Shown here one piece after another: positions 1 through 6,137 of a stretch of 6,137 nucleotides of DNA. The stretch is from NCBI GenBank assembly GCA_003157225.1, contig PMIZ01000481.1, positions 1 through 6,137 of the forward strand, given 5' to 3'. Numbering within the stretch: the stretch's first letter is position 1; every line of letters begins with the position of its first letter. Below the pieces are notes generated by a model. That model saw only the letters and a list, made by a program, of their open reading frames with translations, was not told where the DNA came from and searched no databases. Both the position numbers and the translations under genes were made by a program. Source of the DNA: Actinomycetota bacterium (lineage in GTDB: Bacteria; Actinomycetota; Thermoleophilia; RBG-16-64-13).

Positions 1-947
1 CCGGCTTGTATCCACGGCCCCGACTCTGGGCCGAAGGCAAGGACTGGGAGGGCTATGACGGCCACTTCTCCTATGGGTTCCTCACCGAGCCCGGGGTGTG
101 CCATCCCATCGAAGGAGCCGTCGCTCATCCCTATGACGAGGTCCTGGTGTTCGCCGGCACCGAGCTTGCGGATATCCTCACTCTCGGCGCCGAGATGTCG
201 ATAGAACTCGGCGAAGAGCGGGAGGAGCACATCTTCGATGTACCGACGGTCGTGAGCATTCCCAAGGGACTCCCCCACGGCCAAGTCCGGGTCAGGAAGA
301 TAGGCTCCGAAGCGGTCGCGCACTATCTGTTTGGACTGGCGGCCCAGTACCAGGCCGAGGTGATTCCCGCGAAGTCACTTCCCCCAAGGACGACCGGATT
401 GAAGTACGCCCATCTGGTACATCCCTTGAGGACCAGTCGCAGTCCGGAAGTGATGGCCGCCACGCATGCCAACGACCCGGGGCTCTTGGCCAGGATAGAG
501 GCGGCAAGATCGCAGCACGGCCGGGAGTACGATGACTCAAGAGGCGTGCTCCACCCTAGGGATTTCGAGGGTCCGGGGAGCGCCGATTCCATGATCTGCA
601 TGTTCGGTGAAGATCTCAACGGTTTCCGTTTCAACTTCACGTGGGGGTTCTACAGCAGCACCGGCGGCGCCGGCACCGACACCGACAGATCCAACGAAGG
701 TCACACCCACCCTGAGCCAGAAGCCTTGATATGGGTAGGCCTCAACCCCGGCGACCTGAACTACCTCGGCGCAGAAATTGAGCTAGCGTTGGGCCCCGGG
801 TTGGAGAGACACGTGTTCAGCACACCGACATGTGTGGTCTGCGCGGGGGATTTTGTCCACACGCCGCTGATCACTAGGCGGGTGGATAACCCCTACGTAT
901 TCCTTATCGGATTGCTGGCCGAGGAGTACGTGGGACTCCCCGGGTGA
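1..947 (+). CDS. Two-domain cupin protein, 5' end cut by window edge
   Basis: This is the 3' part of a bicupin gene. The frame is open to base 1 and reads Gly-Leu-Tyr-Pro-Arg-Pro, which matches Gly-Leu-Tyr-Pro-Lys-Pro at residues 21-26 of the complete bicupin at 1876-2841. The TTG at position 6 is therefore an ordinary Leu codon, and about 20 N-terminal residues lie outside the window. Counting from that Leu, the N-terminal cupin has HPYDEVLVFAG at 41-51 and PKGLPH at 86-91. The C-terminal cupin has HTHPEPE at 233-239 and a second-motif His at 285. In the N-terminal half the position of the first His of HxH is Val39. In the C-terminal half the usual PxGxxH is altered to AGDFVH, keeping the His. 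No signal peptide is visible, so a cytosolic metalloprotein is likely. Substrate and reaction are unknown. It is a close paralogue of the 1876-2841 product but clearly diverged, especially in the linker. A promoter of its own for the next gene starts 18 nt downstream, so this gene probably ends an upstream transcript. Confidence 0.85.
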   Translation, partial: GLYPRPRLWAEGKDWEGYDGHFSYGFLTEPGVCHPIEGAVAHPYDEVLVFAGTELADILTLGAEMSIELGEEREEHIFDVPTVVSIPKGLPHGQVRVRKIGSEAVAHYLFGLAAQYQAEVIPAKSLPPRTTGLKYAHLVHPLRTSRSPEVMAATHANDPGLLARIEAARSQHGREYDDSRGVLHPRDFEGPGSADSMICMFGEDLNGFRFNFTWGFYSSTGGAGTDTDRSNEGHTHPEPEALIWVGLNPGDLNYLGAEIELALGPGLERHVFSTPTCVVCAGDFVHTPLITRRVDNPYVFLIGLLAEEYVGLPG

Positions 948-965
948 GTCCGGAAGACCTGCGCC

Positions 966-994
966 TTGACAGCGTGGACGCTCATTGCTAGCCT
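966..994 (+). promoter_or_regulatory. Sigma70-like promoter of the TetR gene
   Basis: A perfect -35 box TTGACA (966-971) is followed by 17 nt and TAGCCT (989-994). The latter matches the -10 consensus at its three most conserved positions (T1, A2, T6). The predicted transcription start is near 1001. The placement between the stop of the upstream bicupin gene and the TetR start, plus a palindrome over the -10 region, supports it. It is assigned by eye only. Confidence 0.55.
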
Positions 995-1005
995 AATTTG
1001 TTAGG
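992..1005 (+). promoter_or_regulatory. Short palindrome over -10/start site, candidate operator
   Basis: CCTAA (992-996) and TTAGG (1001-1005) form a perfect 5-bp inverted repeat around TTTG. It overlaps the end of the predicted -10 box and the predicted transcription start. TetR-family repressors usually bind inverted repeats at just this place and repress their own gene, so it is a candidate half of an autoregulatory operator. The arms are short, so chance occurrence is possible. Confidence 0.35.
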
Positions 1006-1012
1006 TCAAGGG

Positions 1013-1031
1013 GTAGTAGTTGCCCTACTAC
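1013..1031 (+). promoter_or_regulatory. 7-bp inverted repeat in leader of TetR gene
   Basis: GTAGTAG (1013-1019) and CTACTAC (1025-1031) form a perfect 7-bp inverted repeat with a 5-nt centre (TTGCC). It lies about 12-30 nt after the predicted transcription start. It may be a dimeric TetR operator. As RNA, it would instead be a small hairpin that covers the alternative TTG start at 1020, which sits in the loop. It is the most regular palindrome upstream of the regulator and a better operator candidate than the 992-1005 repeat. Confidence 0.45.
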
Positions 1032-1058
1032 AGACGGGAATGCTTGGAGACCGTGTCG

Positions 1059-1700
1059 GTGGAAGAGAAGTCAGAAGTCGAGGAGAGGGTCCTGCAAGCG
1101 GCGAGGAAGCTCTTCCTCGCCCGCGGGGTCGCGAAGACGCCGCTGAGGGCTGTCGCCGCCGAGGCGGGCACCAGCGAAAGCGGGATCCTCAGGTTCTTCA
1201 GGGACAAGGACGACCTGGTCCACGCCGTGATCGATTCGTGCTGGGTCGAAGTGAACGCCCGCATTGCCGAAGCGTTGCGCGTGAACTCGGAGCGCAGCGA
1301 CGATCCGCGCTTCCTGCTGATCGAAGTAGTGCGGGCCATATTGGAGCACGCGGCAACCGACAAACGAGCGAGGTCGTTTCTCGTCAGCCATTTTCACTAC
1401 ACGTTGTCGGCCGGCTCCGACGAGAAGCACCCCACGGCCAATGCGTCCCGGTTCAACGCATACCGTGAGTATCGATTGACTATCGACGAACTGTGCGCAC
1501 GCATTGCAGCCTACGATCCGGGTCTCCGCGAGGCCGGGATCACTCAGGCCGGGCTGTGTCATCTGACTCTCTCCCTTCTCTACGGGATTTCCGGCGGGTG
1601 GTACCTGTCCGAGCGAAATCCGATGGTCCACGGCCCGGCTGTGCCTCTCGAGGACGCCCTTGTCGTCCTTCGCAGAGTCGTCTATGCGGATGGAAGCTGA
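1059..1700 (+). CDS. TetR/AcrR-family transcriptional regulator
   Basis: This is a one-component DNA-binding repressor, 213 aa from GTG 1059. That length is typical for TetR family members. The N-terminal helix (ERVLQAARKLFLARGV, about residues 9-24) leads into a helix-turn-helix (about 27-48: TPLRAVAAEAGTSESGILRFF). The family signature DKDDLVHAV follows at about 49-57. The C-terminal ligand and dimer domain (about 60-213) is divergent and does not reveal the ligand. GTG 1059 was chosen because GGAGA (1046-1050) lies 8 nt upstream and it leaves the usual short arm before helix 1. GTG 1053 and TTG 1020 are in-frame alternatives. TTG 1020 has AAGGGG at 1008-1013 and would add 13 residues. The gene has its own promoter at 966-994 with palindromes, so autoregulation is likely. 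The adjacent bicupin genes are plausible targets by position, but no matching operator was seen upstream of 1876. Confidence 0.88.
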   Translation: MEEKSEVEERVLQAARKLFLARGVAKTPLRAVAAEAGTSESGILRFFRDKDDLVHAVIDSCWVEVNARIAEALRVNSERSDDPRFLLIEVVRAILEHAATDKRARSFLVSHFHYTLSAGSDEKHPTANASRFNAYREYRLTIDELCARIAAYDPGLREAGITQAGLCHLTLSLLYGISGGWYLSERNPMVHGPAVPLEDALVVLRRVVYADGS

Positions 1701-1725
1701 CAAGGCTGTCTCAAGGCAACAATAT
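1697..1725 (+). promoter_or_regulatory. Weak candidate promoter for the bicupin gene
   Basis: CTGACA (1697-1702, five of six consensus bases, overlapping the TetR stop codon) is followed after 17 nt by CAATAT (1720-1725, three of six). If used, transcription would start near 1732 and give a leader of about 145 nt before the GTG at 1876. The rest of the 1701-1875 gap shows no clear palindrome, RNA structure or gene. Read-through from the TetR promoter is an equally good explanation for expression of the bicupin gene. Confidence 0.2.
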
Positions 1726-1861
1726 GGATATCGGGTTACACCAATCCTCGTGCCACGGATCCAGCCGGTAGGGGGATTGGAGTTCACCTCCCTCTGGCAG
1801 CGAGAGCGCATCGCTTCCAGAGGTGCGGAACTCAACGCGGAAATGCTCGAACAGACATCTC

Positions 1862-1868
1862 AAGGAGG
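1862..1868 (+). promoter_or_regulatory. Shine-Dalgarno fixing the bicupin start
   Basis: AAGGAGG is a full-length match to the anti-Shine-Dalgarno, 7 nt before GTG 1876. It decides the start of the bicupin gene against the much longer open frame, which reaches back to 1660 inside the TetR gene. It also decides against ATG 1843, which has no properly spaced ribosome binding site. Confidence 0.85.
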
Positions 1869-1875
1869 CGGCGAA

Positions 1876-2841
1876 GTGGTACAGAAACTCTATCCCCATC
1901 TGATCAAGCCGGCGCTCGTCAAGCAGGGGCCCGCCGGGCTGTATCCGAAGCCGCGGATCTGGATGGACGCCAAGGACATGGAGGGCTTCAACGCCTACCT
2001 ATCCTACGGTTTCATAACGGAGCCGGGCACGCTCCATCCGGTCGAAGGCATGGTAGTCCATCCCTATGACGAGGTCCTGGTTTTTGCCGGTTATCAGGAC
2101 GGCGACATACGTCGCATGGAAGCGGAGATATCCATACAACTCGGCGCGGAGCGGGAGGTGCACACCTTCCACAAACCTACCTACGTCGTAATCCCCAGGG
2201 GTACGCCGCACGGTCCCGTCACGACCCACTGGGTGGACAGACCGATAGCCCACTACGTCGTCGGCCTTTCGCCCGAGTACAAGGCGGACGTGCTGCCCGC
2301 GGGCACTCCGACCACAGGCTCTAAGTACGCCCACCTGGTCAAGAACCTTCGGTGTGAGCTTCCCGACGCCCTGAAGACAATGACGGGCGAAGAGAAGCGC
2401 GGACCGACCTATGCCGACATCATGGACGAGGACGGGATACTCCATCCGGTCAAGTTCGGTGTGGGGCCTGGCAACGGCGATGAGATAGTCTGGCTGTTCG
2501 GCGACAACCTCGAGGGCATGGACGTCAACTTCACCTGGGGCTACTACACGAAGACTGGCAAGTGGCACAGAGGTGGGGAAGTCCATACCCACCCCGAAGC
2601 CGAGATACTATGCTACCTAGGGCTCGACCCGGAAAACCTCGACTATCTGGGCGCGGAGCTCGAGCTGGGCATGGGCAAGGAGCGCGAAAGGCACGTCTTC
2701 AACACGCCGACCGTCGCCGTCTGCCCGGAAGGGTTCCCTCACCTGCCGCTCATCACAAGGTGGGTCGACAAGCCCTATGCCTTCATCGTCGTGTGCTTGA
2801 GTGGCGAGCATGACTCGCCATGGGTGGAAGTCGAGGAGTAG
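1876..2841 (+). CDS. Two-domain cupin (bicupin) metalloprotein of unknown substrate
   Basis: The protein is 321 aa from GTG 1876 and has no signal peptide or membrane segment. It is built of two homologous halves. Half one (about 40-135) has SYGFITEP, then HPYDEVLVFAG (62-72) and PRGTPH (107-112). Half two (about 215-310) has HTHPEAE (237-243) and PEGFPH (284-289). Both halves end in a matching TxxVDxP segment followed by a hydrophobic strand. The second half keeps the full cupin metal set: His237, His239, Glu243, His289. The first half has Val60 in place of the first His. This suggests one normal metal site per chain and a second half with altered or structural function. A conserved KYAHLV linker (150-155) is shared with the upstream paralogue. 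Cupins include dioxygenases, decarboxylases, isomerases and binding proteins, and nothing here picks one. It follows the TetR gene by 175 nt and is followed by a strong hairpin, so it may be a single-gene unit or the end of a TetR transcript. Confidence 0.85.
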   Translation: MVQKLYPHLIKPALVKQGPAGLYPKPRIWMDAKDMEGFNAYLSYGFITEPGTLHPVEGMVVHPYDEVLVFAGYQDGDIRRMEAEISIQLGAEREVHTFHKPTYVVIPRGTPHGPVTTHWVDRPIAHYVVGLSPEYKADVLPAGTPTTGSKYAHLVKNLRCELPDALKTMTGEEKRGPTYADIMDEDGILHPVKFGVGPGNGDEIVWLFGDNLEGMDVNFTWGYYTKTGKWHRGGEVHTHPEAEILCYLGLDPENLDYLGAELELGMGKERERHVFNTPTVAVCPEGFPHLPLITRWVDKPYAFIVVCLSGEHDSPWVEVEE

Positions 2842-2868
2842 ACCGCTAGTGGTTCAACCGCATAGTGC

Positions 2869-2904
2869 GCAAGACGTGGGAGGCACCGGCCTCCCACGTC
2901 TTGC
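2869..2904 (+). terminator. Perfect 16-bp hairpin after the bicupin gene
   Basis: Bases 2869-2884 (GCAAGACGTGGGAGGC) pair perfectly with 2889-2904 around an ACCG tetraloop. It starts 28 nt after the bicupin stop codon and ends 39 nt before the AKR start. The stem is long and GC-rich, as in intrinsic terminators, but the following bases (TCTGCGCC) are not a T-run. It may terminate on the + strand only partly. Alternatively it protects the 3' end of the upstream mRNA or sets the ratio of bicupin to AKR expression. Confidence 0.65.
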
Positions 2905-2943
2905 TCTGCGCCGCCCTGAGCAAAGCACCGTTGGGCAGGCATC

Positions 2944-4089
2944 GTGAAATACCGTGGATTTGGGCGACTCGACTGGCAATCATCCGTCCTGGGGGTGGGC
3001 GTCATGCGCCTGCCCACTCGTGTCGTGGGAAGTCAGAGCGCCATCGACGAGGCTGAAGCGATCAGGATCATCAGGCACGGCATCGACCGGGGTGTCAACT
3101 ATGTCGACCTCGGCTTCCCCTGGGACATGGCGCGTCACGAGCCGATCATCCGCGTCGTCGGCAAGGCCCTCCAAGACGGATACCGCGAGCGGGTCAAGCT
3201 CGCGCTCACAATCCCCGCCTTCATGATCTCGTCGCCCAAGGACTTCGATCGCAGCCTGGATGGCCAACTGGAGTGGCTGGGCTCGGACGGTGTGGACTTC
3301 TGCCTCCTCGGCCGGCTGACGCGAGACAACTGGCCTGGGCTGGAGGAGATGGGCATTCTGAGCCGCCTTGAAGAAGCACAGTCCGACGGTCGCATCCAAC
3401 ACGCGGGTTTCTCCTTCCACGATCACTACCAGGTGCTCAAGAGCATCATTCGAAGCTATGACCGTTGGATCGTCTGCAGCGTCCAGTACAGCTACATGGA
3501 CGTCAAGCATGACCCCGGCGCGAACGGCATCCGCTACGCGGCGGAACAGGGCCTGGCCGTGGTCGCCACAGAGCCGTTCAAGGGCGGGAGGCTCACGAAA
3601 GAGCCCCCCGAGGAGGTGCGCCAGGTATGGGCCCGGTCTCCGCGGGAATGGTCCCGCGCCGAGTGGGCGTTGCGCTTCGTCTGGAACCATCCTGGTATCT
3701 CCGTCGCGGTGGGCGACATGGGCAGCATGGAGCAGATCGTCGAGAATCTGAAGGTGGCAGAGACGGCCGAGGCGGACAACCTTTCCATCCCTGACGAAGT
3801 GACGATTGGGAACGTGCGAGACGCGTTCCGAAAGCGGCAGCAGGTGCCGTGCCCCTCCTGCCGCCCCTGCATGCCCTGTCCGGAGGGCATCGACGTGCCG
3901 CGCTTCTTTGAGATCTACAACGACGCGGCCATGTACGAGGACGTGGAGACGGCACGGTCGCTCTGCATCCGAGAGCGCATCTATCCTGAGGACTGCACCG
4001 AGTGCCGGCACTGCGAGGCTCGTTGCACCAAAAGACTACCTATGGTCGATTGGCTCGCGCGGGGGAGATCCTTCCTGGGGCTCACCTGA
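2944..4089 (+). CDS. Aldo/keto reductase-like protein with C-terminal [4Fe-4S] domain
   Basis: This 381-aa protein has an AKR TIM-barrel (about 1-285) followed by a cysteine-rich ferredoxin-like tail. The opening MKYRGFGRLDWQSSVLGVGVM fits the family start and supports GTG 2944, although its ribosome site (GGCAGG, 2934-2939) is modest. Cofactor-side motifs are present: GFSFHD (155-160), VQYSYMD (180-186), EPFKGGRL (210-217) and MGSMEQIVENLK (259-270). The tail has C303-x2-C306-x2-C309-x2-C312-P, then C351-x2-C354-x2-C357-x3-C361, enough for two [4Fe-4S] clusters. The classical Asp-Tyr-Lys-His tetrad is eroded. Asp55 is kept, but the Tyr position is Trp60, the Lys position Thr89 and the His position Gly123 (aligned from memory with the Fe-S AKR family). 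Normal carbonyl reduction is therefore doubtful, and an Fe-S-dependent redox role or electron transfer is possible. The protein is cytosolic. It lies between bicupin and small-cupin genes and runs convergently into the latter. Confidence 0.88.
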   Translation: MKYRGFGRLDWQSSVLGVGVMRLPTRVVGSQSAIDEAEAIRIIRHGIDRGVNYVDLGFPWDMARHEPIIRVVGKALQDGYRERVKLALTIPAFMISSPKDFDRSLDGQLEWLGSDGVDFCLLGRLTRDNWPGLEEMGILSRLEEAQSDGRIQHAGFSFHDHYQVLKSIIRSYDRWIVCSVQYSYMDVKHDPGANGIRYAAEQGLAVVATEPFKGGRLTKEPPEEVRQVWARSPREWSRAEWALRFVWNHPGISVAVGDMGSMEQIVENLKVAETAEADNLSIPDEVTIGNVRDAFRKRQQVPCPSCRPCMPCPEGIDVPRFFEIYNDAAMYEDVETARSLCIRERIYPEDCTECRHCEARCTKRLPMVDWLARGRSFLGLT

Positions 4090-4133
4090 CGGCCACGGGT
4101 TGACACCAAGAGCTTGCTTCGTCGCAACCAGCC

Positions 4134-4622
4134 TTAGACCACTCCGTAGCCCGCCGGCGGAGGATCGATCGGATCGTGAGGGTACGGGTAGTGCGTAACC
4201 GTCGGTGCCGATGCGATCCAGACGATGGGCGAATTCACCTCGTGAAACACGACCGGGCAATGGTAGACACCTCTCGGGCAGAAGACAGCACAAGTCTTGG
4301 TCAATATGTACTTCTCATCTTCTATCCACATTTCTACTACCCCGTCCAGCTCATGGGGCTTATCGACGTTCGTCCCTATGAACGTAACGTACTCATCATA
4401 CGAATGGACATGCCCTTGAGGATGGCCTTCGAACCAACCTAGCGGCTTCGTGATGAGCGCGATGTTCAGATAGGTGGCATTCGGTACGGCGCCCTGAAGC
4501 TCATTGTTGATCCAGACTACGTTGGTACCGCCTGCTTCCTTCGGATTAGCAGGGCGAGACTCCATCGGCGGATCTATCGTCTTCTCGATGACGTATTTAG
4601 CGTATTTCTTCTCGCCTGGCAT
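4134..4622 (-). CDS. Small single-domain cupin protein (copy A)
   Basis: The protein is 162 aa from an ATG (4620-4622) with GGGAGGAG 10 nt upstream. It opens MPGEKKYAKYVIEKT, like copies B and C. The cupin core has HVHSYDE (71-77; metal ligands His71, His73, Glu77), FIG (81-83), WIEDEKY (99-105) and CPRGVYH (115-121; ligand His121). The invariant FHEVNSPIV follows at 126-134. The C-terminal tail DPIDPPPAGYG (150-160) is shared with copies C and D. The full ligand set predicts a bound divalent metal. The reaction is unknown, and binding or sensing is as possible as catalysis. It is the last gene of the minus-strand row, 39 nt after copy B, and ends 44 nt from the convergent AKR gene. Cys111, Cys115 and Cys122 lie near the metal motif. 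Only copy A has Cys at 115, and B and D lack the equivalent of 122. Confidence 0.88.
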   Translation of the reverse strand: MPGEKKYAKYVIEKTIDPPMESRPANPKEAGGTNVVWINNELQGAVPNATYLNIALITKPLGWFEGHPQGHVHSYDEYVTFIGTNVDKPHELDGVVEMWIEDEKYILTKTCAVFCPRGVYHCPVVFHEVNSPIVWIASAPTVTHYPYPHDPIDPPPAGYGVV

Positions 4623-4632
4623 TCTGTTTTCA

Positions 4633-4640
4633 CTCCTCCC
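4633..4640 (-). promoter_or_regulatory. Ribosome binding site of small cupin A
   Basis: Read on the - strand, GGGAGGAG stands 10 nt before the ATG at 4622. The 20 nt before the start (GGAGGAG, a purine, GAAAA, a short spacer, AGA) are nearly the same in front of copy C. The duplication therefore carried the ribosome binding region along with the gene. Confidence 0.7.
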
Positions 4641-4661
4641 GCCAAAATCGGTACCTTGTCC

Positions 4662-5105
4662 CTACATCATCCCGTAGCTGTAGTTGGTCGCTGCCGACGA
4701 CTCGACCCAGACGATGGGCGAGTTGACTTCGTGAAACACGCAGGGGGAATGGTAGATGCCTTTCGGAACAAAAACAGCGCAACTCTTGGTCAAGACGTAC
4801 TTCTCGTCCTCTATCCAGAACTCGACCACTCCGTCCAGATCGTAGGGCTTCTCGATGTTGGTCCCGATGAATGTCACGTACTCGTCGAATGCGTGGACAT
4901 GCTGCTGGAACGGTCCCACCTCCGTCGGTTTTGCGATGATTTCGGCGTTCATATAGGTGGCGTTCGGCACCGTCCCTTGAAGCTCGTCGTTGATCAAGAG
5001 CACGTTCGTGCCTCCGGCCGGCATGGGAGCGCCCGGGAGAGGGTTTGACGAAAGCTCAGCCGTCTTCTCGATGATGTATTTCGCGTACTTCTTCTCGTCT
5101 GGCAT
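4662..5105 (-). CDS. Small single-domain cupin protein (copy B), shortened tail
   Basis: The protein is 147 aa from an ATG (5103-5105) with AGGGGT 8 nt upstream, a weaker site than those of A and C. It opens MPDEKKYAKYIIEKT. The core is intact, with HVHAFDE (69-75; ligands His69, His71, Glu75), FWIEDEKYVLTKS and VPKGIYH (113-119; ligand His119), then FHEVNSPIV. The end differs from its sisters. Where A, C and D continue with about 13 residues ending DPxDPxPAxYGV, B goes from NY directly to SYGMM and stops. This looks like an in-frame loss of most of the tail, while the last Tyr-Gly is kept. The N-terminal stretch 16-30 is also the most diverged. It lies 46 nt after copy C and 39 nt before copy A, with no terminator between them, so co-transcription is likely. 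Function is unknown. Confidence 0.87.
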   Translation of the reverse strand: MPDEKKYAKYIIEKTAELSSNPLPGAPMPAGGTNVLLINDELQGTVPNATYMNAEIIAKPTEVGPFQQHVHAFDEYVTFIGTNIEKPYDLDGVVEFWIEDEKYVLTKSCAVFVPKGIYHSPCVFHEVNSPIVWVESSAATNYSYGMM

Positions 5106-5151
5106 CCTATTTCACCCCTGGTGTTGTTCGCTTCCTCGCGACGCAATCGCC

Positions 5152-5631
5152 CTAGAGCACTCCGTATGCCGCCGGCGCTGGATCAATGGGGTCCCGAGGT
5201 TCTGTGCAATGGGTGGCGGCTGCTGACGCAATGAAAACGATGGGCGAGTTGACTTCGTGAAACACGAACGGGCAGTGGAAGACCCCTTTTGGAACGAAGA
5301 TGGTACAACTCTTGGTCAAGATGTACTTCTCGTCTTCAATCCAGAATTCCGCCACTCCGTCCAGATCGAAGGGCTTCTCGATGTTTGTCCCGATGAAAGT
5401 GACGTACTCGTCAAACGAATGGGCATGTTGCCGAAATGGCCCCGGGTGCAACGGCTTGGTGATGAGCGTAGCTTCCAGAAAGGTGGCATTCGGCATGGCA
5501 CCGTCGAGCCCGTTGTTGATGTAGATCACGTTCGAACCGCCGTGCGCCTTGGGGTCGGCAGGGCGAGGGTATGACGGCGGCTCAGGGGTCTTGTCGATGA
5601 TGTATCTCGCGTACTTCTTTTCGCCTGGCAT
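5152..5631 (-). CDS. Small single-domain cupin protein (copy C)
   Basis: The protein is 159 aa from the ATG at 5629-5631, which has GGAGGAG 9 nt upstream and gives the same MPGEKKYARY opening as its paralogues. The frame is open to an ATG at 5673, but that would add 14 residues unlike any sister and place the ribosome site inside the gene. The core has HAHSFDE (69-75; ligands His69, His71, Glu75), FWIEDEKYILTKS, VPKGVFH (113-119; ligand His119) and FHEVNSPIV. The tail is DPIDPAPAAYGV. It is closest to the partial copy D, sharing a 37-nt identical stretch in the core. It is probably the first gene of a C-B-A transcript, because two hairpins lie upstream between it and copy D. Substrate is unknown. 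Confidence 0.88.
   Translation of the reverse strand: MPGEKKYARYIIDKTPEPPSYPRPADPKAHGGSNVIYINNGLDGAMPNATFLEATLITKPLHPGPFRQHAHSFDEYVTFIGTNIEKPFDLDGVAEFWIEDEKYILTKSCTIFVPKGVFHCPFVFHEVNSPIVFIASAAATHCTEPRDPIDPAPAAYGVL
5310..5346. repeat. 37-nt stretch identical between copies C and D (copy C side)
   Basis: Bases 5310-5346 are identical to 5916-5952. The stretch encodes the FWIEDEKYILTK segment on the - strand. Neighbouring parts of the two genes differ at many third positions. This block therefore marks either strong constraint, a recent duplication or local gene conversion. Confidence 0.7.
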
Positions 5632-5640
5632 TCTTTTTCG

Positions 5641-5647
5641 CTCCTCC
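5641..5647 (-). promoter_or_regulatory. Ribosome binding site of small cupin C, decides the start
   Basis: GGAGGAG on the - strand stands 9 nt before the ATG at 5631. It favours this start over the in-frame ATG at 5673, for which the site would lie within the coding region. Confidence 0.75.
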
Positions 5648-5692
5648 GCAACGCCCGTTGACGTTGGCCTCAAGGGCTGTGTTTTCGACTCC

Positions 5693-5724
5693 CGGTGAGA
5701 CCTACCGCGAGGCAGGCCTCACCG
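5693..5724 (-). promoter_or_regulatory. Imperfect inverted repeat in the gap between cupins D and C
   Basis: CGGTGAG (5693-5699) and CTCACCG (5718-5724) are perfect arms. After one mismatch they continue with CCT/AGG, giving an 11-position stem with one mismatch and a 10-nt loop. No T-run follows on either strand. It lies between the stop of copy D and the start of copy C. A Rho-assisted terminator, an operator for copy C, or an mRNA processing or stability element all fit. A smaller hairpin, GGCTC-loop-GAGCC (5740-5753), sits right after the stop of copy D. No convincing -35/-10 pair is seen in the rest of the 126-nt gap. Confidence 0.45.
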
Positions 5725-5757
5725 AGGAAAGAGTGAGTTGGCTCCCTCGAGCCGGCG

Positions 5758-6137
5758 CTAGAGCACTCCGTAGCCCGCCGGCGGCGGATCGACAGGATCA
5801 CGCTGGTCCACGTAGTGAGTGATCGCTGCCGATGCCATGAGAACGATGGGCGAATTCACTTCGTGAAACACGAAGGGGAGATGGTAGGCGCCCTTCGGAA
5901 TGAGGATGGTGCACGTCTTGGTCAAGATGTACTTCTCGTCTTCAATCCAGAACTCCACGACTCCATCCAGCTCGTAGGGCTTGTCTATATTCGTCCCGAC
6001 GAACGTGACGTACTCGTCGAACGAATGCGCGTGCTGGTGAAAGGGCAGCTTCAACGGCTTGGTTATGAGCGCGATGTCCATGTAGTTCGCGTTGGGCATG
6101 GCGCCTTCGAGCTCGTTGTTGATGTAGATCACGTTCG
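5758..6137 (-). CDS. Small single-domain cupin protein (copy D), 5' end outside window
   Basis: This is the C-terminal part of a fourth paralogue. The frame is open to the right edge, and the first complete codons read Asn-Val-Ile-Tyr-Ile-Asn-Asn. That matches residues 34-40 of copy C, so about 33 residues are missing. The GTG at 6130-6132 is an internal Val, not a start. The visible core has HAHSFDE (ligands His, His, Glu), FWIEDEKYILTKT, IPKGAYH (third His) and FHEVNSPIV. The tail DPVDPPPAGYGV is complete. Copy D lacks the Cys found at the third position of the TKxC(A/T)(V/I)F(V/C)P stretch variants only in copy A. It shares most of its core with copy C. It is the most upstream visible gene of the minus-strand row, and further copies may lie beyond the edge. 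Confidence 0.87.
   Translation of the reverse strand, partial: NVIYINNELEGAMPNANYMDIALITKPLKLPFHQHAHSFDEYVTFVGTNIDKPYELDGVVEFWIEDEKYILTKTCTILIPKGAYHLPFVFHEVNSPIVLMASAAITHYVDQRDPVDPPPAGYGVL
5916..5952. repeat. 37-nt stretch identical between copies C and D (copy D side)
   Basis: This is the partner of 5310-5346: the same bases in the same orientation and the same reading frame, encoding the FWIEDEKYILTK segment. The two lie 606 nt apart, about one gene plus one gap. Confidence 0.7.

Follow-up and report, generated by a model that had tools for sequence, protein, structure and literature searches.

The DNA analysed here, hereafter the window, is a stretch of 6,137 nucleotides (contig PMIZ01000481.1 of assembly GCA_003157225.1, assigned to the Actinomycetota) whose source is an uncultured, probably anaerobic, actinobacterium-like organism. 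It holds eight genes, and our inventory agrees with that of a first-pass annotation made from the letters alone: six cupins, namely two two-domain bicupins and four tandem single-domain proteins, together with a TetR-family regulator and an iron-sulfur (Fe-S) homologue of the aldo-keto reductases (AKRs). The present work centres on bicupin B (1876..2841, plus strand, with a GTG start that follows AAGGAGG) and on the Fe-S AKR-like protein encoded downstream of it on the same strand (2944..4089). The oddest feature of the locus, which the first-pass annotation did not mention, is that this AKR lacks its catalytic Lys and His.

The catalytic tetrad of the AKR superfamily is Asp-Tyr-Lys-His. The window protein matches Aldo_ket_red (PF00248) with 70 bits against a cut-off of 24, and when the tetrad positions are set by alignment to the solved AKR 5dan and among the AKRs linked to a bicupin, D55 is kept while W60, T89 and G123 stand in for Tyr, Lys and His, respectively. 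The same pattern recurs in the linked AKRs of other genomes, as in our alignment A3 Asp is found in 17/19, Tyr in 6/19 and both Lys and His in 0/19. This alignment omits the proteins of loci L002, L005 and L012 (contig ends), L017 (distant) and L065, all of which were checked separately, and with these five included Lys occurs in 1/24 (L017) and His in 0/24. Among the 120 listed database proteins closest to the window AKR, Lys is present in none (one gap) and His in none, and 118 possess all eight cluster cysteines. These cysteines (C303, C306, C309, C312, C351, C354, C357 and C361), which make up two motifs of four, are invariant in 20/20 linked AKRs and in 20/20 cousins with an intact tetrad, and could hold two [4Fe-4S] clusters; the Fer4_9 match of the window protein reaches 22 bits, below its cut-off of 27. 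The 20-row comparison, which leaves out L017, further reveals residues that are newly fixed in the linked proteins, namely P191 (20/20), S183 (19/20) and D258 (17/20), the last, which may bear on NAD(P)H binding, at a position where Gly is fixed in all 20 intact cousins.

To which extent this unusual AKR accompanies the bicupin was followed with a bicupin-alignment scan of a species-genome collection (84,980 species), for which two peptide patterns were used, so that relatives can be missed. The scan yielded 25 loci, mostly from Dehalococcoidia/Chloroflexi and also from Acidobacteria, Bacillota/Clostridia, Spirochaetes, Actinomycetota and one Bathyarchaeota. Together with the window and three regions from two genomes (L066-L068) they form a linkage set of 29 sources, in which 38 bicupin open reading frames (ORFs) score at about 150 bits or more; L025 was left out of the linkage count as its bicupin piece is too short. 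All 23 ORFs that score at least 499 bits (18/18 loci) have an AKR downstream on the same strand, and the distance to the nearest bicupin is within 600 bases in 16 of these 18 loci. In L012 and L015, both from Bacillota, the AKR lies 5.6-5.7 kb downstream of the bicupin, past importer genes. The 15 lower-scoring rows are more diverse, since an AKR is found downstream in five (L017, L018, L021, L024 and bicupin A of the window), nearby in the other orientation in one (L004), and not at all in nine (two in L019, L020 and L068, which represent the same gene, two in L022, two in L023, and L067). In one order of 151 genomes, the 12 genomes with a bicupin are the same 12 that have a linked AKR, all of which were already among the input loci. 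The distances within the bicupin and the AKR trees also correlate (r 0.77 for 15 loci with one bicupin each; 0 of 5000 permutations as high). The homologues are thus no scattered singletons without a conserved neighbourhood, as the first-pass annotation had considered they might turn out to be.

A profile search of the same 151 genomes, in which up to 12 candidates were scored per genome, provides a control for the loss of the tetrad. It returned 55 AKR matches in 36 genomes, 12 of which adjoin a bicupin, and of the 43 unlinked cousins 42 carry the intact D-Y-K-H tetrad and one is truncated before Lys, with His. No cupin was detected near any of the 43 in the fetched regions, some of which are short contigs, so that the linkage exceeds what chance would give. 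Both forms, linked and intact, are present in six genomes (G004, G005, G007, G008, G011 and G014). The linked AKRs constitute one clade (support 100/100 in a 21-row tree) that extends over five phyla, namely, by record title, Chloroflexota, Bacillota, Actinomycetota, Acidobacteriota and Spirochaetota, so that the pairing recurs in distantly related lineages. The closest relatives of the window AKR come from G020 (Actinomycetota, 68%) and then from G611. Since the linked proteins are one clade, the tetrad loss represents one evolutionary event. Pairs of linked AKRs show dN values of 0.07-0.24 vs dS values of 0.38-1.24 (dS was computable in 4/5 pairs), and as dN is far below dS, the linked AKRs are under purifying selection and are not decaying genes.

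The bicupins show an asymmetry of their own. In all 25 sequences of the ligand count (the 23 high-scoring ones, L017 and bicupin A), the first His of the H-x-H motif in the N-terminal half is replaced by Val, Leu or Ile (Val in bicupin A), the remaining ligands H62, E66 and H112 are kept, and the C-terminal half has the full 3His-Glu site (H237, H239, E243 and H289). Among relatives unlinked to an AKR, five (in L022 4262-6517, L023 9983-12246 and L019 9992-10894) retain the first N-half His at position 60, and those of L019 8849-9802 and L020 have Val there and are yet unlinked. Bicupin A (3..947, plus strand, 5' end beyond the window) is a divergent relative with 51% identity to bicupin B and a score of 434 bits with the profile of alignment A2 (23 chosen rows, 22 of them among the 120 listed proteins or from the window), and in its C-half CAGDFVH replaces P-x-G-x2-H. 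The predicted structure of bicupin B is an ordinary double-stranded beta-barrel bicupin fold (predicted local distance difference test, pLDDT, 89.2). Neither window bicupin has a match in Pfam, and in a database search that returned 709 proteins a precomputed Pfam domain was found in none of 120 among the matches listed.

The four single cupins s1 (4134..4622), s2 (4662..5105), s3 (5152..5631) and s4 (5758..6135, 5' end beyond the window) are all encoded on the minus strand. In their alignment A1 (18 rows) the ligands H69, H71 and E75 are present in 18/18 and H119 in 17/18 rows, the remaining row having a gap, and all four window proteins align with the complete set. The A1 profile matches bicupin B with 32 + 20 bits and bicupin A with 20 + 20 bits, on which basis the single cupins and the bicupin halves are, as far as profiles can tell, related; the homology is by profile only (20-32 bits), and the structure prediction of the single cupin has a pLDDT of 31.4. 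The proposal that the single-domain core lines up with each bicupin half thus holds with regard to relatedness and fails for the first His of the N-half and for the P-x-G of the C-half of bicupin A. Matches of s1-s4 to Cupin_2 (PF07883) cover the latter half of this model with 17.3 to 19.6 bits and thereby miss its curated threshold of 27.2. A database search at E 1e-3 returned 17 proteins, three of which are the window's own (P0004, P0005 and P0008) and two of which are distant (P0021 and P0022); the database clusters of s1, s2 and s3 come from contigs of up to 29,591 bases. In the tree of the single cupins, whose long-branch warnings mostly concern parts outside the window-type clade, s1 groups with P0017 and P0019 (support 98/62), s2 with P0018 (100/99) and s4 with P0013 (100/99; 99% identical over 123 columns), and s3 is left without a close partner. 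With their partners on other contigs instead of among themselves, s1, s2 and s4 are no recent copies of each other, and the tree thus rejects the recent tandem duplication implied by the term local expansion; s1-s4 rather look like old, distinct paralogues.

Several known systems can be compared. Bicupin B is about 9-10% identical to the oxalate decarboxylase OxdC and 14% to the quercetin dioxygenase YxaG. OxdC has a full 3His-1Glu metal site in both halves, whereas here the N-half is devoid of the first His, and the window type of bicupin further differs from OxdC and YxaG in its linkage to an Fe-S AKR-like protein. The Fe-S-tailed AKRs, named 'predicted aldo/keto reductase-like oxidoreductase' in one source, share the eight cluster cysteines with the linked proteins, whereas the latter lack His in 24/24 and Lys in 23/24 cases. 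With respect to Cupin_2, the window singles are sub-threshold and the bicupins unmatched, while 3/10 sampled distant relatives pass the cut-off. In the Protein Data Bank (PDB) the bicupin profile had no match at E 0.01, and sequence and profile searches gave nothing convincing for either kind of cupin; NCBIfam had no match for the cupins and matches to TetR and AKR models only below curated cut-offs. No characterised member of the family was thus found by sequence in PDB or NCBIfam. Expansions in SAR202 bacteria reportedly concern other enzyme families and marine aerobic lineages. Large expansions of catabolic enzyme families have been described for this group of Chloroflexota, similar to the cupin expansion seen here (PMC6946804, PMC5395668), and the word 'cupin' did not occur in the search listing for either paper. 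It occurs in some other papers of our literature search, in which titles and the openings of abstracts, with thin coverage of subscription journals, contained nothing about this cupin family or the pairing of bicupin and AKR. Such absence is weak evidence of novelty. The folds themselves are known, but the pairing of a bicupin with an Fe-S AKR devoid of the tetrad is apparently undescribed within the searches made.

The neighbours of the bicupin-AKR unit in related genomes give hints to its role. Pfam domains among them include URO-D, BPD_transp_1, SDR, SBP_bac_5 and SnoaL_2; other labels such as ATPase, TRAP, ribosomal protein or glycyl-radical activase come, here and below, from reading the sequences except where checked against Pfam. 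In L066 (genome G611) the genes next to the unit encode a URO-D-like protein, permeases and ATPases of the Dpp type, an SDR and a solute-binding protein as well as one more cupin, and importer genes of the same clusters adjoin it in L003, L006, L009, L012, L015 and L016. The importers, SDRs and URO-D-like proteins suggest a catabolic role. Proteins of the URO-D family lie by the unit in several phyla (L066 9485-10900 by Pfam; L013 12759-14099 and L016 8046-9386 by clustering), and an H-x-C pattern that would point to corrinoid methyltransferases is found in 4/6 of those checked, which is too weak to decide.

From our point of view, the window is best explained, with a probability of roughly 40%, as a catabolic locus in which catalysis takes place at the metal site of the bicupin, with the tetrad-less AKR as its Fe-S partner. 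The conserved core is a two-gene unit of a bicupin and an Fe-S protein of AKR descent. Under the control of TetR, a small oxygenated organic substrate would be imported, presumably by transporters like the Dpp-type importers of the relatives, and then be converted at the metal of the bicupin C-half. The former AKR would have given up the classical hydride transfer from NAD(P)H to a carbonyl group and may assist the bicupin by transferring electrons and/or holding the substrate, whereas the single cupins might act on related intermediates or build mixed oligomers. The first-pass annotation had envisaged a dedicated and possibly undescribed catabolic or binding system; that the system is conserved and apparently undescribed agrees with our results, and its catabolic nature is suggested by the neighbours. 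In its strongest form this reading would make the bicupin and the tetrad-less AKR an obligate two-subunit metalloenzyme, in which a formerly NADPH-dependent reductase relays electrons to the cupin metal through its Fe-S clusters, and hence a novel class of cupin oxidoreductases that work without oxygen, within a family that has expanded to dozens of copies in some anaerobes; we regard this version as doubtful.

Several observations weigh against the catabolic partnership. Nine of the 15 lower-scoring bicupin rows lack an AKR, so that bicupins of the wider family do not need one, and genes that are moved jointly would in any case show correlated trees. The distant linked AKR of L017, which sits on a long branch, aligns with a Lys at the tetrad position, and the contrast between 12 linked and 43 unlinked AKRs is one evolutionary event, not many. 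Moreover, distant Fe-S AKRs in L046 (3-1124, with a cupin 84 bases on) and L051 (3565-4710, with a cupin 1.7 kb on) have an intact D-Y-K-H tetrad, and nearness to a family cupin alone is therefore not tied to the loss. Importer and URO-D genes are seen in the relatives only and none is in the window, and we infer anaerobiosis from the lineages and enzymes. The tetrad loss is tied to one bicupin subfamily, and L046 and L051 perhaps represent the state of the pairing before the loss, or chance.

The bicupin and the AKR-like barrel could also be consecutive but independent enzymes, each responsible for its own step in a pathway, in which case the barrel would have gained a new reaction (e.g. lyase, isomerase or ferredoxin-linked reduction) that uses D55 and other conserved residues. 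The two proteins are encoded by separate genes, between which five genes intervene in the Bacillota loci L012 and L015, D55 is retained in most linked proteins, and the newly fixed P191, S183 and D258 look like a re-tooled pocket. As the tight adjacency and the correlated distances suit a complex equally well, we consider separate enzymes a possibility to be held tentatively. Family cupins adjoin many different importers and enzymes, and five-gene arrays of single cupins in other genomes (see below) hold one member with a degraded metal motif, as one might expect if the cupins bind intermediates or metals non-catalytically and act as ligand sinks or regulators beside importers. Metalloenzymes, however, usually conserve all metal ligands, and the complete sets in the window singles and in the C-halves of all 25 bicupins of the ligand count make such a binding or sensing function unlikely. 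That generic cupins were locally duplicated by chance and form no dedicated system could be argued from the related genomes, which are cupin-rich anyway, so that some genes would cluster. This ordinary amplification is already largely refuted and appears highly improbable, given the partners of s1, s2 and s4 on other contigs, the conservation of the bicupin-AKR link across five phyla, and the recurrence of a TetR relative next to a single cupin of the window type.

If the partnership of bicupin and AKR is true, an oxidoreductase would have lost its own chemistry on recruitment to another enzyme, and the intact cousins that several of these genomes also encode would represent natural controls. 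A cupin family that is poorly annotated, and of which certain small genomes contain dozens of domains, would further gain a two-gene unit amenable to testing, and the substrate could reveal a class of organic matter that is turned over without oxygen and overlooked by current annotation.

The TetR-family regulator of the window (about 1053..1700, plus strand) is assumed to start with the GTG at 1053, which is uncertain, and has a TetR_N domain of 46.8 bits, above the Pfam cut-off of 24. It is 55% identical over 209 amino acids to the TetR of L069, a locus of the Thermoleophilia-type genome G611 in which the regulator adjoins a window-type single cupin, and a further two-domain cupin and an importer of the Dpp type lie beside it. 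In L020/L068 and L062, TetR proteins 36-38% identical to that of the window are found in loci with other family cupins, so that regulators of this family possibly move together with the cupins. A 35-base piece of the window had no exact match in viral contigs.

The density of cupins that had been noticed in the window also has counterparts elsewhere, as loci with several cupin genes and arrays of single cupins are repeatedly found in other genomes. The 22 genomes chosen because they hold a bicupin or a relative contain 3-62 domain matches to the single-cupin profile each (62 in G008, 59 in G004 and 51 in G011), counts in which a bicupin can appear twice and which are no average; the highest belongs to a genome of 2.3 Mb. 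The profile matched 1/148 genomes in the class of G003 (G003 itself), 29/151 in the order of G004 (12 of them input, thus 17/139 others) and, at E 1e-12, 2/296 in the phylum of G020, one being G020; another sample gave 8 genomes in 149, 7 of which were used further. By these counts, the family is patchy and no trait of whole classes.

A five-gene array of single cupins is common to G005, G007, G010 and G016 (Dehalococcoidales/Dehalococcoidia; L046 6787-9297, L043 972-3500, L041 1275-3883 and L054 7309-9841), each position forming its own clade and one having a degraded metal motif (L046 8391-8822, L054 7843-8286). In two of the four genomes the arrays adjoin putative ribosomal-protein genes. 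Together with the partners of s1, s2 and s4 on other contigs, these positional clades indicate that single cupins recurrently occur in arrays whose members are distinct and long-lived, and their position-by-position conservation would fit mixed oligomers and several related substrates equally well. An aromatic or polyphenol substrate was considered on account of a pyrogallol-hydroxytransferase-like protein (AhtL-like_1st) near a family cupin of L039 and of a Fer4 protein that accompanies one in L036, but was not built on since both loci belong to a single genome (G020) and neither concerns the unit of bicupin and AKR. In G611, a putative ferredoxin-like 4Fe-4S part and a family cupin are joined in one chain in L076 (1776-2534, minus strand; Pfam Fer4 match) and L077 (6147-6956, plus strand; Fer4 part by reading), with the cupin profile matching both, and such a fusion would parallel the partnership of bicupin and AKR. 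The same genome also harbours, in one run (L071 11794-18115), a glycyl-radical enzyme with an activase-like protein of the radical-SAM type, together with an importer, SDRs, and a two-domain and a single cupin.

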